Assembly (NCBI GenBank): GCA_018882885.1
Contig: VERG01000006.1
Span: forward strand, 1 to 64,000
Source: Candidatus Nanopelagicaceae bacterium
GTDB lineage: Bacteria; Actinomycetota; Actinomycetes; Nanopelagicales; Nanopelagicaceae
Reading direction: 5' to 3'
Length of the DNA: 64,000 bases
Shown here: positions 41-25,190 of the stretch, in pieces
How positions within the stretch are numbered: the stretch's first letter is position 1
How the letters are laid out: each line of letters opens with the position of its first letter
Made by a program: the position numbers and the translations under genes
The notes under the pieces: generated by a model
Databases searched by the model: none
What the model was told of the DNA's origin: nothing
What the model saw: only the letters and a program-made list of their open reading frames with translations

Positions 41-3000
41 ATGACTCCAGATAACAAATTCGGCGGCTCATTTGGATCAAATGAGTGGCTAGTCGATGAG
101 ATGTATGAGCGTTATTTAGCCGATCCCAACTCAGTTGAAGATGATTGGAAAGAGTTTTTTGCCGGATACAAACCCGGTAATAACACAGCAACCGCAACAT
201 CTCCAGGTGTTCCACCGATTCCAAAAAGACAACAGCAGCCACAAGCGCCGGCAAATGTTGTTGCTACTCCAGAACCTGTTGTCGCTCCGACTCCACAGCC
301 AACTGTTAGGCCAACCACTCAGCCAACTCCAACACCTGCTCAAGCTGTAACAAGACCTGCACCACAAGTTTCAACTCCTGCTTCTGCAAGAGTTGAACCA
401 CTTCGCGGAGTCGCAAATCGAGTTGTTCAAAGCATGGAGGCATCTCTAAGCGTTCCTACCGCAACAAGTGTTCGCGCTATTCCAGCAAAGTTAATGATTG
501 ATAACCGCACAGTAATCAATAATCACTTAAAGCGCGCACGCGGTGGCAAAGTTTCTTTCACTCATCTAATTGGCTACGCCATGATTAAAGCGATGCGCGA
601 AATGCCGGAGATGAACGCATTCTTTACTGAACAAGATGGTAAGCCTGCAATTGGGTTTCCTGATCACATCAATTTAGGAATCGCCATTGATTTAGCTAAA
701 GAAGATGGCTCTCGTCAATTACTAGTTCCATCAATCAAAGGTTGTGAAAATCTAGATTTTGGCCAGTTTTGGTCTGAGTATGAAGCGCTGGTTAAGAAAG
801 CCCGCAAAGGCGCTTTGACTGTAGAAGATTTCGCAGGCACTACGGTTTCGCTCACTAATCCAGGAACTATCGGAACCGTTCACTCCGTTCCCCGTTTAGT
901 TCAGGGACAGGGATTGATTCTCGGCGTGGGCGCGATGGATTATCCGGCTGAGTTCCAGGGAGCCAGTGAGGAAACTATTGCTGAGCTAGCGATTTCTAAG
1001 GTCGTAACTCTGACCTCTACATATGACCATCGCATTATTCAAGGTGCTCAGTCAGGTGATTTCTTGCGTCGGATTCATGAAATTCTTTTGGGTGCAGAGG
1101 ATTTCTATGGGGAAATTTTTGCTGCTTTGCGAATTCCTTATGTTCCGATTCATTGGCATGCCGATATTCCAGAAGGTAAGGACCAATTAAACAAAGCTGC
1201 TCGAGTTCAACAATTGATTCAGGCTTACCGCACCAGTGGTCATTTAATGGCTGATATTGATCCACTTGAATACAAACAACGGAGCCACCCTGATCTTGAT
1301 GTTGTTACTCATGGTTTAACGCTTTGGGATTTAGATCGCGAGGTTGCAACTGGTGGCTTTGGTGGCCGCCCTTATGCAAAATTAAGAAACATCCTCGGCA
1401 CCCTACGCGATTCTTATTGCCGCTCTATCGGCATCGAATATATGTACATCGACTCACCAGAAGAACGTAAATGGATTCAGAGCCAAGTTGAAGTTGGTTC
1501 ACCGTTCTTCCCACGTGAGGAACAGCTTCGAATTCTGCGCAAATTGAATTCAGCAGAAGCATTTGAAACCTTCCTGCACACTAAGTTCGTTGGACAAAAG
1601 CGTTTCTCACTCGAGGGTGGCGAATCAGTAATTCCACTTCTTGACGCCATTGCGCGCTATGCAGCAAAAGCGGAGCTTGAAGAGATTTGTATTGGAATGC
1701 CACACCGCGGTCGCTTGAATGTATTGGCAAATGTTGCTGGAAAGTCCTATGGACAAATTTTCCAAGAGTTTGAAGGTCACTACCAAGAAAACGAAGTTCA
1801 GGGCTCTGGCGATGTTAAGTATCACCTCGGCACCTACGGAGACTTCGTAACCGAGTCTGGTGAGAAGACAAAGATTTATCTTGCTGCTAACCCATCTCAT
1901 CTAGAGGCGGTAAACCCTGTTCTAGAGGGAATTGTTAGGGCAAAGCAGGATCGCAAAAATGTAAAAAGTGCGTTCTCTGTGATGCCAATTTTGATTCATG
2001 GCGATGCCGCCTTTGCTGGCCAAGGCGTGGTTGCCGAAACCCTAAATATGTCGCAACTACGTGGTTATCGCACGGGTGGAACCATTCACGTAGTCATCAA
2101 CAACCAGGTTGGCTTTACAACATCACCTGAGTCAGCCCGTTCTTCCAGGTACTCAACCGATATCGCAAAATTGATTCAAGCTCCGGTCTTCCATGTAAAT
2201 GGTGATGACCCCGAGGCTTGCGTACGTGTGGCTCGGGTGGCTTTCGAATACCGACAGACATTTAACAAAGATGTTGTTATCGACATGGTTTGCTATCGCC
2301 GTCGTGGCCACAACGAAGGTGATGAACCAAGTTTCACACAACCACGCATGTACAAGTTAATAGATGCAAAACGCACTACTCGCGTTCTTTATGCAGAGGC
2401 TCTAGTAGGTCGTGGAGATATAACTCAGGAAGAGTCTGATCAAATTGCCCGTGAGTTCCAAGCTCAATTGGAAGGCATTTTCAATATTGTTCATGACAAA
2501 CTTCCAGAGAAGCCGGCCTTTAACAAACTCGAAACCTTTGATCCGGTAAAGACCAACACCGCAATATCTGAACCTGTTGCTCGACAGATTGCAGCTACTC
2601 AAGTTGCGGTACCTGAAAACTTCAAAGTTCATCCAAAGTTGACACCACAACTACAGCGTCGCGTCACCATGCTTGATGATGGAACGATTGATTGGTCGGG
2701 TGGCGAAATGCTGGCCTTTGGTTCTCTTCTTCTGGAAGGTCATCCAGTTCGTATCGCCGGACAGGATGTTGGTCGCGGCACCTTCTCCAATCGTCATGCA
2801 GTAATTAGAGACCATGAAGATGGCAGTGAATGGATTCCGCTTCGCGGCCTACTGGATAATGAAAACCAATTTTTTGTAGTTGATTCACTCCTTTCGGAAT
2901 ATGCCGCAATGGGCTTTGAGTATGGCTATTCCGTCGAGCGCGAGAATGCCCTAGTACTTTGGGAGGCGCAGTTTGGTGACTTTGCTAATGGCGCGCAGAC

Positions 3001-21391: not shown

Positions 21392-22729
21392 GTGACCGAT
21401 CAGATTCCGGCCAAGACCAGCAAGCGCAGCGCCAAACTGGCCAGCATTCCATTGTCTGTCGCTGGTCGTGGCGCTATCGGATTTGGCAAACAATTAATCG
21501 GTCAGTCCCCAGATTTTGCCTTTGGTGATTTGCAGGAAAAAACCGCAGAGCAGGTTTTTAAAGTACTTGGTGAGTTAAAGGGTGGCGCCATGAAGTTTGG
21601 CCAAGCACTCTCTGTATTTGAGGCTGCACTTCCCGAAGATATCGCCAAGCCCTACCGTGAAACATTGGTTAAGTTGCAGGAGTCTGCGCCACCACTGCCA
21701 GCTCGTGTTGTCCATAAAGTTTTAGCAAAGGAGTCAGGTGAAGATTGGCGCGACAACTTCGCTGAGTTCAATGACACCCCTGCTGCTTCGGCGTCAATTG
21801 GTCAGGTGCACAAAGCGGTTTGGAAAGATGGCAGAGTTGTTGCAGTTAAGGTTCAGTATCCCGGCGCAGCAGAGGCTTTAATTTCAGATCTAAATCAAAT
21901 TCAAAGATTTGCCAAAATCTTCCAGTTAGTAATGCCAGGTCTTGAAATGAAACCACTTCTTGAAGAGCTACGTGCTCGCATTATTGAAGAGGTTGATTAT
22001 CGCTACGAAGCACAGGCACAAGAGGCTTGCTGGAACGCCTTTGAAAATGATCCCGATATTGCAATTCCAAAGGTGGTTCAGGCAACTGATCGGGTTTTGA
22101 TTAGTGAATGGTTAGAGGGAACCCCTCTTGCCAAGGTCATTGAAAAAGGAACTCAACAAGAGCGCAATAACGCAGGTATTCGTTTGGCTCGTTTTCACTT
22201 CACTGCGCCAACAAGAGCTGGATTGCTTCATGCCGATCCTCATCCCGGCAATTTCAGAGTTTTGGCAGATGGCCGTTTAGGAGTTTTGGATTTTGGTGCC
22301 TGCAACCGATTGCCAAACGGTTTCCCAGAACCATTCAAACGTTTACTACGCAACGCTCTCGAAGGAGATGCCATCGCGCTCTATAACGGTTTTAAAGAGG
22401 ATGGCTTCATCCTGGCCGATGTTGATGTTGATCCTCAATTAGTTTTGGATTATCTACTGCCCTTAGTAGAACCACTTCGCACCGAGCATTTCGCCTACAC
22501 CCGCGAATGGCTCCGGGAACAAAGCGTTCGAGTTGGAGATCCGCGAAACCCCACCGCCAAAATCGGCTTCCAGCTAAACCTTCCACCCGAGTACGTTTTG
22601 ATTCATCGAGTTACCTTGGGAACCACCGGAATCTTCTGCCAGCTTCGCGCGGCAGGAAACTTCCGTGACGAGGCTTTGTCCTGGTTCCCCGAGATAACTC
22701 CATCGCACTTGCAATCATCTCCCGCCTAA
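21392..22729 (+). CDS. ABC1/AarF (UbiB) family atypical kinase
   Basis: A 445-residue UbiB-type protein-kinase-like ATPase. Family motifs are all present: KGGAMKFGQALS (KxGQ), PAASASIGQVHKAV, VAVKVQYPG, HADPHPGNF and LDFGAC. Members support quinone or lipid metabolism in many lineages; no substrate is evident. GTG start. Its TAA stop lies inside the base of the first palindrome that separates it from whiB7. The order ABC1 kinase-whiB7-uvrD2 is the mycobacterial one (Rv3197-Rv3198c, from memory). Confidence 0.93.
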   Translation: MTDQIPAKTSKRSAKLASIPLSVAGRGAIGFGKQLIGQSPDFAFGDLQEKTAEQVFKVLGELKGGAMKFGQALSVFEAALPEDIAKPYRETLVKLQESAPPLPARVVHKVLAKESGEDWRDNFAEFNDTPAASASIGQVHKAVWKDGRVVAVKVQYPGAAEALISDLNQIQRFAKIFQLVMPGLEMKPLLEELRARIIEEVDYRYEAQAQEACWNAFENDPDIAIPKVVQATDRVLISEWLEGTPLAKVIEKGTQQERNNAGIRLARFHFTAPTRAGLLHADPHPGNFRVLADGRLGVLDFGACNRLPNGFPEPFKRLLRNALEGDAIALYNGFKEDGFILADVDVDPQLVLDYLLPLVEPLRTEHFAYTREWLREQSVRVGDPRNPTAKIGFQLNLPPEYVLIHRVTLGTTGIFCQLRAAGNFRDEALSWFPEITPSHLQSSPA

Positions 22730-22803
22730 ATTGTTTTCGTTGGGGTAAAGCAAATCATGAGTTTGCGCAGCGAACTCGATTTGCGAACCAATGAAAACAA
22801 TTT
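22728..22803. repeat. Palindromic intergenic element, copy 1
   Basis: An imperfect 74-76 nt palindrome. Outer arm 22729-22743 pairs with 22788-22802 with one G-U pair. Inner stems are GCAAATC with GATTTGC (22750-22756, 22778-22784) and GAGTTTGC with GCGAACTC (22759-22766, 22770-22777), capped by a 3-base loop. It includes the last bases of the ABC1 kinase stop codon. There is no T-run, so it is not a standard terminator. Confidence 0.9.
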
Positions 22804-22809
22804 CAGCTG

Positions 22810-22885
22810 AATTTGTTTGCGTTGGGGTAAAGCAAATCATGAGTTTGCGAAGCGAACTCGATTTGCGAACCAACGGAAACAAATT
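22810..22885. repeat. Palindromic intergenic element, copy 2
   Basis: A direct repeat of the preceding palindrome with an 82-base offset. The central 53 bases (22821-22873) differ from copy 1 at one loop position only. The outer arms differ (AATTTGTTTGC instead of AATTGTTTTC), but the opposite arm changes with them, so pairing is kept with one mismatch. It ends inside the whiB7 stop codon. Confidence 0.9.
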
Positions 22886-23234
22886 AAGCAGAGACCGTTA
22901 AGGGTTGATTAAGACGGGGTCGACCTGGAAGTCGCTTTGCCGCAATAACCACACCATCTTCAAACAACTCTCCACCCCAAACCCCGACCGGTTCCTGTCT
23001 GGACAATGCACCATCTAGGCATTGCTTCTTTACTGGACACCCTCCGCAAAGTGATTTGGCATAGGCGATCTCTTCACTCTTTTCAGAGAAGAAGATCTCT
23101 GGATCAGAGTTGTGGCAGGGCAGGGTAAATGCATTATCGGTGCCATAAACACCTGTAACTGCATCAAGGCCAATCATGGCGTTATCGCCTTCGGCCCATC
23201 CTGGTACCAATAGTTCGCTAAAGAGAACTGTCAT
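22884..23234 (-). CDS. whiB7: WhiB7-type Fe-S transcriptional regulator
   Basis: A 116-residue WhiB protein. Cys40, Cys63, Cys66 and Cys72 (LPCHN, CGGCPVKKQC) bind a [4Fe-4S] cluster; the GVWGGE turn contacts sigma region 4. The C-terminal KRLPGRPRLN is an AT-hook, the mark of the WhiB7 class, which activates intrinsic antibiotic resistance genes in mycobacteria and Streptomyces. ATG 23234 is preferred over GTG 23243 because AGGTGAG lies five bases before the ATG. The N-terminus is about 20 residues longer than I recall for mycobacteria. Its long leader holds a small ORF and a terminator, and gene order beside uvrD2 supports the assignment. Confidence 0.9.
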   Translation of the reverse strand: MTVLFSELLVPGWAEGDNAMIGLDAVTGVYGTDNAFTLPCHNSDPEIFFSEKSEEIAYAKSLCGGCPVKKQCLDGALSRQEPVGVWGGELFEDGVVIAAKRLPGRPRLNQPLTVSA

Positions 23235-23300
23235 CGTTCTCACCTATGCCTTTCCATTTTCCTTCTAGTTTGGGTAATGCCTTTAGTTATTTGTGGAGAT

Positions 23301-23340
23301 AAAGAAAAAGGGGCCTGAATCCTTGTGGATTCGAGGCCCC
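23301..23340 (-). terminator. Intrinsic terminator (attenuator) in the whiB7 leader
   Basis: On the minus strand GGGGCCTCGAATCC pairs with GGATTCAGGCCCC across a 4-base loop, followed by TTTTTCTTT. It stands about 67 bases before the whiB7 start and 19 bases after the stop of a small ORF, as expected for an attenuator. Confidence 0.9.
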
Positions 23341-23359
23341 GGGGCTTCTTTATCGTTGA

Positions 23360-23503
23360 TTAACCGATGAAGCTCCAGGTGCCGAATCCATCGGCCTTGG
23401 CTGACTTGGTTGCAAAATAGTTGTAACCAAATGCAGGCATAAACCAATGACGATGAGTGCGTGTTGCATTCATCGCTGTTGAGATGGTTGTCGCCTGCTT
23501 CAT
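23360..23503 (-). CDS. Small ORF in the whiB7 leader (47 codons), candidate regulatory uORF
   Basis: ATG 23503 to TAA 23360 encodes 47 residues rich in aromatics in its second half (HWFMPAFGYNYF, GTWSFIG). An in-frame ATG at 23524 would give 54. The frame ends just before the leader terminator, so ribosome position could decide whether the terminator forms. No family is recognised and there is no ribosome binding site. The likely promoter puts the transcript start next to the ATG, so leaderless translation is plausible. A free-standing small protein cannot be excluded. Confidence 0.6.
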   Translation of the reverse strand: MKQATTISTAMNATRTHRHWFMPAFGYNYFATKSAKADGFGTWSFIG

Positions 23504-23512
23504 AGTCGGGAA

Positions 23513-23542
23513 AGGGTAATGCATCGATCAATTGAGATGCAA
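23513..23542 (-). promoter_or_regulatory. Candidate promoter of the whiB7 leader
   Basis: On the minus strand TTGCAT is followed after 18 bases by TACCCT (TAnnnT type -10), nine bases before the small-ORF ATG. An A-rich run (AAAAAAA) lies further upstream; AT-rich sequence near the -35 is a known feature of WhiB7-activated promoters, but here the spacing is not tight. Confidence 0.45.
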
Positions 23543-23564
23543 ATGAATTAATCAGATGGTTTTT

Positions 23565-25190
23565 TTAAATTAGGCCTGCTTCAGCTAAAAATGGGCTGGG
23601 TACTCCGTAGTAACTAATAACCAAGCTCTGCGCCGCACGGGTAACACCAACGTAAAACAGTCTGCGCTCCTCTTCTAATGGCTGATTGCCCCAAGGCAGA
23701 ACATCGGCGCATACCCCGGCTAAATAGACCTTTTTCCACTCCAAACCCTTAGCCGCATGCAGAGTTGCCAGAGCTACTCCAGGCAGGGTTGGTGGGTTGT
23801 TTTGTTCGGCGCGATCCTCGAGTTCACGCAAGAAAGCGCGCAGTGAGTTGGTGCCTTCATTCTCTAACTCTCGTGCCAACTGCATAAAGGCACGAACATA
23901 CTCACTCTCCCCAAATGGTTTCATAGCATCACGCAAATCAGCCAACCAATCCCCTTCGGAAAGTACTGAAGCGCTGCGGACTGCTTTGATGATTTCTTTT
24001 ACCTCAGCACGATTGAAGAATCTTTCAGCGCTGCGAATCTGATTTTCAATTCCCGCAGACGAAAGAGCTGTCTCTAAGTTCTCTAATTGGGAGTTAGTGC
24101 GGGCTAGAACTGCGATTTCATATGATGCAATTCCATTGGCAATATCCTGCTTGATTAATTCAGCTAACTCTTGCGCCTCTTGTTTTTCAGAGTTGAATGC
24201 AATCGCCTTTGGTTTTTCACCATGTGCATTTATTGGATCTAACTCATGACCTAAATTGGCGTTTCGCAAAATACTATTGGCGGTATTTATAATCTCAGGA
24301 GTTGAGCGATACCCGGAGCTAAGTCTGATGATCTCAGCCTGCGGATACTTATTTGTAAAGTTGAGCAAGAAGGCTGGGGTTGCTCCCGCAAAAGAGTAGA
24401 TAGTCTGGGCTGGATCTCCTACTACGCATATGTCTTCCCGTTTACCTAGCCAGAGATCGAGAAGGCGTTGTTGCAGCGGAGAAACATCTTGGTACTCATC
24501 CACTGTGAAATAGCGGTACTGATCTCTAATCCGATCCCGAACCTCGCGCTCCTCCTCCAGCATTCCGACAGTGAGCAGAAGAACATCTTCAAAATCAATG
24601 GCCCGCTCTTGCTTCTTTAAAGATTCATATGCCTCATAAACTCGAGCGATTTGAGTTGCATCAACTTTGTTGTTGGAGATGCGAATCGGACGGTCATAGT
24701 CATCAACCGCTTTGATGTACTCATCTGGTGCCAAACCAATCACTTTGGCCCATTCGATTTCGCCGGCAACATCGCGCAGTACCGTGTTGCTTTTTGTGGC
24801 GCTGATATTGGCCCTTGTGATTGCTTCGCCTAGAAAGCCGGTTTTTGTGGTTAGTAGTGATGGAAACCTTCCGCCCAAGACCTGCGGCCAGAAGTACATG
24901 AGCTGCTTTAACGCTGCCGCGTGAAAGGTTCGGGCTGCCACATTGGGCACGCCCAGCGCTCGCAAACGGGTGCGCATCTCACCTGCCGCACGAGCGGTGA
25001 AGGTCAATGCCAATATGCGTTGGGGATCTACAACTCCAATATCAACCGCATATGCCAAACGATGAGTGATGGCCCGAGTTTTACCAGTACCAGCACCGGC
25101 TATTACACAAACTGGTCCGCGGACTGCGGTAGCTACTGCACGTTGTTCATCATCAAGTGCATCAAGAATTCCTTGCGCTAATTGCGCCAT
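23565..25190 (-). CDS. uvrD2: UvrD2-type superfamily I DNA helicase, short form
   Basis: A 541-residue SF1A 3'-5' helicase. Walker A IAGAGTGKT near residue 30, motif II VDEYQDVSP, YRSTPEI, ATLHAAKGLEW and EERRLFYVGVTRA are all intact. Mycobacterial UvrD2 is about 700 residues and carries a cysteine motif and an HRDC domain after the motor; both are missing here, the chain ending soon after motif VI. The C-terminus reads cleanly into a stop, so this looks like a natural short form rather than a frameshift. Overlaps nudC by 13 bases. Confidence 0.9.
   Translation of the reverse strand: MAQLAQGILDALDDEQRAVATAVRGPVCVIAGAGTGKTRAITHRLAYAVDIGVVDPQRILALTFTARAAGEMRTRLRALGVPNVAARTFHAAALKQLMYFWPQVLGGRFPSLLTTKTGFLGEAITRANISATKSNTVLRDVAGEIEWAKVIGLAPDEYIKAVDDYDRPIRISNNKVDATQIARVYEAYESLKKQERAIDFEDVLLLTVGMLEEEREVRDRIRDQYRYFTVDEYQDVSPLQQRLLDLWLGKREDICVVGDPAQTIYSFAGATPAFLLNFTNKYPQAEIIRLSSGYRSTPEIINTANSILRNANLGHELDPINAHGEKPKAIAFNSEKQEAQELAELIKQDIANGIASYEIAVLARTNSQLENLETALSSAGIENQIRSAERFFNRAEVKEIIKAVRSASVLSEGDWLADLRDAMKPFGESEYVRAFMQLARELENEGTNSLRAFLRELEDRAEQNNPPTLPGVALATLHAAKGLEWKKVYLAGVCADVLPWGNQPLEEERRLFYVGVTRAAQSLVISYYGVPSPFLAEAGLI

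Follow-up and report, generated by a model that had tools for sequence, protein, structure and literature searches.

In the genome of a freshwater actinobacterium (Candidatus Nanopelagicaceae), the space between two convergent genes is taken up by two hairpins, which raises the question of what kind of element this is and what it may do for the transcripts that end there. We examined it within a window of 64,000 nt, the whole stretch of DNA that was analyzed (positions 1 to 64,000 of contig VERG01000006.1).

Two tandem palindromes between a kinase gene and whiB7

One side of the gap is formed by a gene (21392 to 22729, plus strand) for a UbiB/ABC1-family kinase of 445 aa, identified from its open reading frame and a Pfam match to ABC1 (E = 1.4e-61). 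Its best NCBIfam model is the macrolide-binding ATPase MABP-1 (E = 2.5e-136), yet this match falls under the curated cut-off, and we describe the protein as MABP-1 (Rv3197)-like. Facing it is a whiB7-like gene (22884 to 23243, minus strand) with a GTG start that codes for 119 aa with a WhiB domain (reading frame and profile) and whose translation, read directly, has a C-terminal GRPR motif. The next gene codes for a UvrD-like helicase, a name recognized from the translation with no profile search behind it. The trio is like the mycobacterial whiB7-Rv3197 (MABP-1)-uvrD2 neighborhood, the kinase and WhiB by profile and uvrD2 by resemblance, and the locus resembles the mycobacterial order Rv3197-whiB7-uvrD2. 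To our knowledge, the palindrome is not known from the mycobacterial neighborhood.

The kinase stop codon (22727 to 22729) and the convergent whiB7 stop codon (22884 to 22886) leave a gap of 154 nt that is filled almost entirely by an imperfect palindrome of 74 to 76 nt in two direct copies, spaced 82 nt apart and 87% identical over 82 nt. Copy 1 (22728 to 22803, plus strand; covariance model match at 22729 to 22802, 94.2 bits) has the kinase TAA as its outer edge, and copy 2 (22810 to 22885, plus strand; match at 22811 to 22884, 94.2 bits) has an outer arm that overlaps the whiB7 stop codon; both were delimited by repeat and fold. Each copy folds as one long hairpin, and the pair taken as RNA reaches a minimum free energy (MFE) of -77.8 kcal/mol, a value that none of 200 shuffles equalled (z = -9.35). 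The conserved core of copy 1, GGGGTAAAG...GCGAAC (22742 to 22788, plus strand, alignment columns 15 to 62), lies on the strand of the kinase transcript and consists of an internal loop, GGTAAA (22744 to 22749) opposite GAA (22785 to 22787), followed by two stacked helices and a 3-nt loop. The core of copy 2 spans 22824 to 22870 (plus strand), and the 53-nt centers of the two copies differ at one loop base. Copies, centers and folds agree with the initial annotation, which had described two direct hairpins with nearly identical 53-base centers and part of a stop codon in the base of each.

The annotation had also claimed that the outer arms of the two copies differ in sequence and keep their pairing, which was overstated. 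When the arms are aligned outward from the core, 12 of the 15 outer pairs are identical, and the other three are A-U against U-A (a Watson-Crick to Watson-Crick change that reads equally well as a paired one-base indel), G.U against G-C, and U-A against an uncompensated G.G mismatch. Compensation within the genome is weak, and the inference of structure could not rest on the two copies alone; real, repeated double changes emerge only once sister species are added.

Neither copy is followed by a T-run on either strand, as had been noted before, and a terminator scan of the gap was empty. The earlier statement that these are not ordinary terminators is right insofar as other convergent gene pairs of this genome, if separated at all, have a stem plus U-tract between them and the kinase-whiB7 pair does not, although this control is only indicative, since the survey used rough gene calls that missed the kinase-whiB7 gap itself. 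Sequence sampled for the analysis as stretches amounted to about 960 kb. Several strong hairpins lacking a U-tract proved to be poor comparators, since they fall within coding frames or between genes that run in the same direction. The same genome also has a perfect 19-bp hairpin, with no U-tract, between two co-directional genes (L189, 17126 to 17166).

The 5' leader of whiB7 has a canonical terminator, a stem plus T-run that lies some 60 nt before the start codon (23305 to 23340, minus strand; sequence and alignment of relatives) and that we took as the standard of comparison for a conserved cis-RNA. It is well conserved in the same relatives, so that a constraint like that on the palindrome is normal for a functional cis-RNA. 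The leader region gave no Rfam match at gathering score. Upstream of the terminator there are further conserved stretches (23305 to 23600, minus strand, L063-L076) that may include a leader ORF; a leader ORF plus terminator is what whiB7 attenuation leads one to expect.

Distribution and conservation of the element

Of 24 genomes examined from the genus, eight have the element in the kinase-whiB7 gap and in no other gap: the window's own, with two copies, and 7 of the 23 others, with one copy each. In all eight carriers the hairpin lies exactly between the stop codons of the convergent genes. No third copy was found in the window, as first reported, nor in the whole 1.29-Mb genome, and neither a pattern search (up to 3 mismatches) nor the covariance model found further copies in 296 genomes of the family; weak matches there to the core pattern (L144-L147) and to the model (L176-L179) do not form the palindrome on inspection. 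Among 396 sampled genomes of the phylum (395 plus the window's own), only the known copies and one 2-mismatch match of unexamined context turned up. The element is confined to one subgroup of one genus and is specific to this lineage of freshwater actinobacteria. Because each sister species has just one copy, the two in tandem probably arose by local duplication of a single ancestral element in the window's lineage, although an assembly artefact is possible.

Close relatives do without it. Their kinase-whiB7 gaps measure 10 nt (L067), -21 nt (L071) and 2 nt (L074), and in L076, a close sister of the element-bearing L075 and L128, the gap is occupied by a gene of 547 aa (1262 to 2905, minus strand) with no Pfam match. 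Considering that three relatives are nearly gapless and element-free and that a fourth has a gene instead, the element is dispensable. The motif HEFGHAMGLPH in the 547-aa protein suggests a secreted metalloprotease.

The comparison set consisted of nine copies from eight species, the two of the window and seven single ones, with cores of type A (window, L005 and L006) and type B (L007-L011). The 47-column core differs by 0 to 17% overall, the two types being separated by 6 to 8 positions. Within type A, copy 2, L005 and L006 are identical in all 47 columns and copy 1 is off by one loop base, while within type B the species differ by 2 to 6%. Fourfold sites of the flanking genes, by comparison, differ by 36 to 66%. 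Core changes at paired positions keep the pair every time (for instance, the change from A34-U49 to G34-C49 in type A cores, with the long hairpin kept), the internal loop GGUAAA/G[AU]A is near-invariant across carriers, and the terminal loop has 3 or 4 nt depending on the core type. The outer arms differ by 9 to 77% between species with pairing retained, except in L006 (= L063, G018), which agrees with the sister species in its core and 3' arm but has an unpaired 5' outer arm, so that the outer stem is lost; this broken arm is possibly an intermediate of arm turnover.

Over the nine copies, 94.3% of cells are paired against 81.6% in shuffles, and 12 pairs have changed on both sides. The covariation score is 0.375, against 0.148 in shuffles and 0.13 or less in every slid control, and the unaided consensus fold of RNAalifold gives nearly the same structure. 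Covariation thus exceeds both kinds of control, though template switching could account for part of it. Selection for structure, one of the two explanations offered initially, is supported by these double changes and by a core that is near-invariant at synonymous saturation. The annotation had proposed a covariance-model search of relatives as a way to tell a structured family from a local duplication; it yielded no copies at other loci, but the structure is conserved at the kinase-whiB7 locus.

MFE ranges from -22.9 to -38.4 kcal/mol for the core strand and from -19.3 to -31.5 for the complement, and the core strand has the lower value in nine of nine copies. The non-Watson-Crick stem pairs that vary among copies are all of the G.U kind when read on the core strand, with no A.C: the ratio is 5:0 within stems and 8:0 if stem ends are counted (the unpaired arm of L006 left out; two-sided binomial p of 0.06 and 0.008, computed by hand), small numbers that make this bias suggestive only. 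It tracks the core strand even where the whiB7 transcript carries it. In Bacillus cereus terminators, G.U intermediates outnumbered A.C ones by 68:8 (PMC5381666).

Two species, L064 (= L010) and L066 (= L011), have the core turned around with respect to the genes. The locus tree groups L064 with the window group and places L066 near L065, and a topology uniting the two inverted species, with a single origin of the inversion, was rejected (AU test, p = 0.001), which implies two flips or more. Template switching is known to create and maintain hairpins (PMC8794818) and, in yeast, to invert spacers between inverted-repeat arms, these spacers being much shorter (2 to 5 nt) (PMC8604942). By analogy, both arm homogenization and core inversion probably occur here by template switching.

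Possible roles of the hairpin

The element is real, single-locus, conserved and structured, and it is not a mobile palindrome. As to what it does, termination without a U-tract is the likeliest function, and we see roughly an even chance that the element would be a lineage-specific structured RNA hairpin that sets the 3' ends of both transcripts, kinase and whiB7, and protects them. In Escherichia coli convergent genes, head-on collisions of RNA polymerases are reported to be a prevalent ending, positioned by an RNA hairpin with an 8-bp stem (PMC13082048), and terminators common to convergent genes are more conserved (PMC5381666). Collision-positioned termination would, by analogy, be the best available mechanism: the long nascent hairpin would pause either polymerase transcribing the gap and, with the oncoming polymerase, would position bidirectional termination, so that a U-tract would be unnecessary, and the same hairpin would then hinder 3'-to-5' decay of the transcripts. 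The arms would be free in sequence and obliged to pair, template switching between them would probably restore pairing in one step and occasionally invert the core, and the core sequence would be held by an extra constraint, probably the geometry of the internal loop or a bound factor.

Other hairpins at the same place are in line with such a role. In genus g13, all five species examined have an unrelated palindrome of 88 to 90 nt with a conserved interior that fills the kinase-whiB7 gap at one place per genome (L212-L216, around positions 1500 to 1600; L103, L105, L106 and L108), and further clades have other hairpins there. That hairpins of separate origin keep appearing at one convergent gap suggests that they help to end or insulate both transcripts, and this recurrence is expected if the presence of a hairpin matters more than its sequence. 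However, the relatives without the element (L067, L071 and L074) and the lost outer stem of L006 speak against this role, a plain hairpin terminator does not require a near-invariant core and internal loop, and no G.U/A.C strand bias is expected of a hairpin that serves the two transcripts alike, the observed one resting on small numbers.

That the G.U bias follows the core strand is the main reason to give weight to a 3'-UTR regulatory RNA, in which the core strand would be the functional molecule (a protein-binding site or a processed small RNA) and termination would be incidental. The RNA would come from the kinase transcript, except in the two inverted species, where whiB7 would supply it, and the near-invariant loop, the core held at synonymous saturation, the wobbles in both gene orientations and the lower energy of the core strand all favor it. 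However, an RNA with a fixed partner gene would not tolerate a flip to the other transcript, which has happened at least twice, there is no Rfam match, and the element is confined to one subgroup of one genus; we regard this reading as possible but less likely. Its variant in which a fixed-strand RNA is borne by either convergent mRNA, template switching swapping the host gene between kinase and whiB7 without moving the element, appears doubtful. Known RNA families were discarded, Rfam giving only sub-threshold chance matches and tRNAs, and three other identities failed by eye: a small ORF (the frame is lost between core types with 3-nt and 4-nt loops), an integron attC (boxes in the wrong order and GTT/AAC not conserved) and a UAA/GAN loop motif (the opposite strand has GAA or GUA and so fails in some copies).

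A strand-indifferent site acting in DNA, whether it forms a cruciform or is bound by a dimeric protein, would tolerate the flips and would explain the repeated GCAAAT half-sites of the type B core (GCAAAT-n5-ATTTGC-n4-GCAAAT-n3-ATTTGC), and positive supercoils accumulate in convergent gaps. We think it unlikely, since the A34-U49 to G34-C49 difference in type A cores breaks the half-sites and keeps the long hairpin, and the G.U/A.C asymmetry is unexpected for DNA. A hairpin kept by mutation alone, with template switching homogenizing arms of no function, would fit the broken arm of L006 and the known products of that process, arm homogenization and spacer inversion (PMC8794818, PMC8604942), but a mutational bias cannot hold the core at 0 to 6% within a type while fourfold sites reach 36 to 65%, nor make core changes respect pairing; it was already disfavored and is very unlikely. 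The mobile palindromic unit suggested initially, REP-like or a mini-element inserting either way into the loops of species-specific terminator stems, finds some basis in the two orientations, the conserved core within variable arms, the patchy presence among relatives and the precedent of insertion sequences that target REP palindromes (PMC1525189). It is mostly refuted and highly improbable: there is one locus per genome in eight of eight carriers and no copy elsewhere in 296 family genomes by pattern or covariance model, core changes respect the structure, no match was found in viral contigs, phages or plasmids (which also discards an origin from these), and the search for a REP-type (Y1) transposase with PF01797 had no match in the window's genome (G000), while control genomes do match.

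If the convergent 3'-end hairpin is the right explanation, evolution would have left at this locus a natural record of a convergent terminator that lacks a U-tract, with arms that turn over at about the neutral rate with pairing kept and a core that is fixed yet flips without loss. The locus would offer a test case for hairpin-positioned bidirectional termination and for template switching as an engine of compensatory change, and would place the 3' side of the antibiotic-response regulator whiB7 under structural constraint in streamlined freshwater actinobacteria.

Comparison with known systems

The element shares with REP/BIME sequences and their TnpA-REP (RAYT) the form of imperfect extragenic palindromes after stop codons, in tandem copies, but it is single-locus, is not repeated in the genome and has no Y1 transposase. 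Like intrinsic (Rho-independent) terminators, it is a stable hairpin just past a stop codon, and its stem has undergone compensatory changes, which are also seen in B. cereus (PMC5381666); unlike them, it has no U-tract on either strand, and the GC-rich stem with U-tract that defines them is not found. As for the features of a bidirectional terminator, a hairpin lies between the convergent stops in eight of eight carriers and is stable from both strands. The collision-positioned terminators of E. coli, of the ynaJ-uspE type (PMC13082048), differ from it in that here there are two tandem hairpins of 74 to 76 nt with a conserved core, an asymmetric internal loop and strand-biased wobbles, with termination as a predicted function. 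They are like it in being hairpins between convergent stops that fold from either strand, and in that unrelated hairpin sequences occupy equivalent sites.
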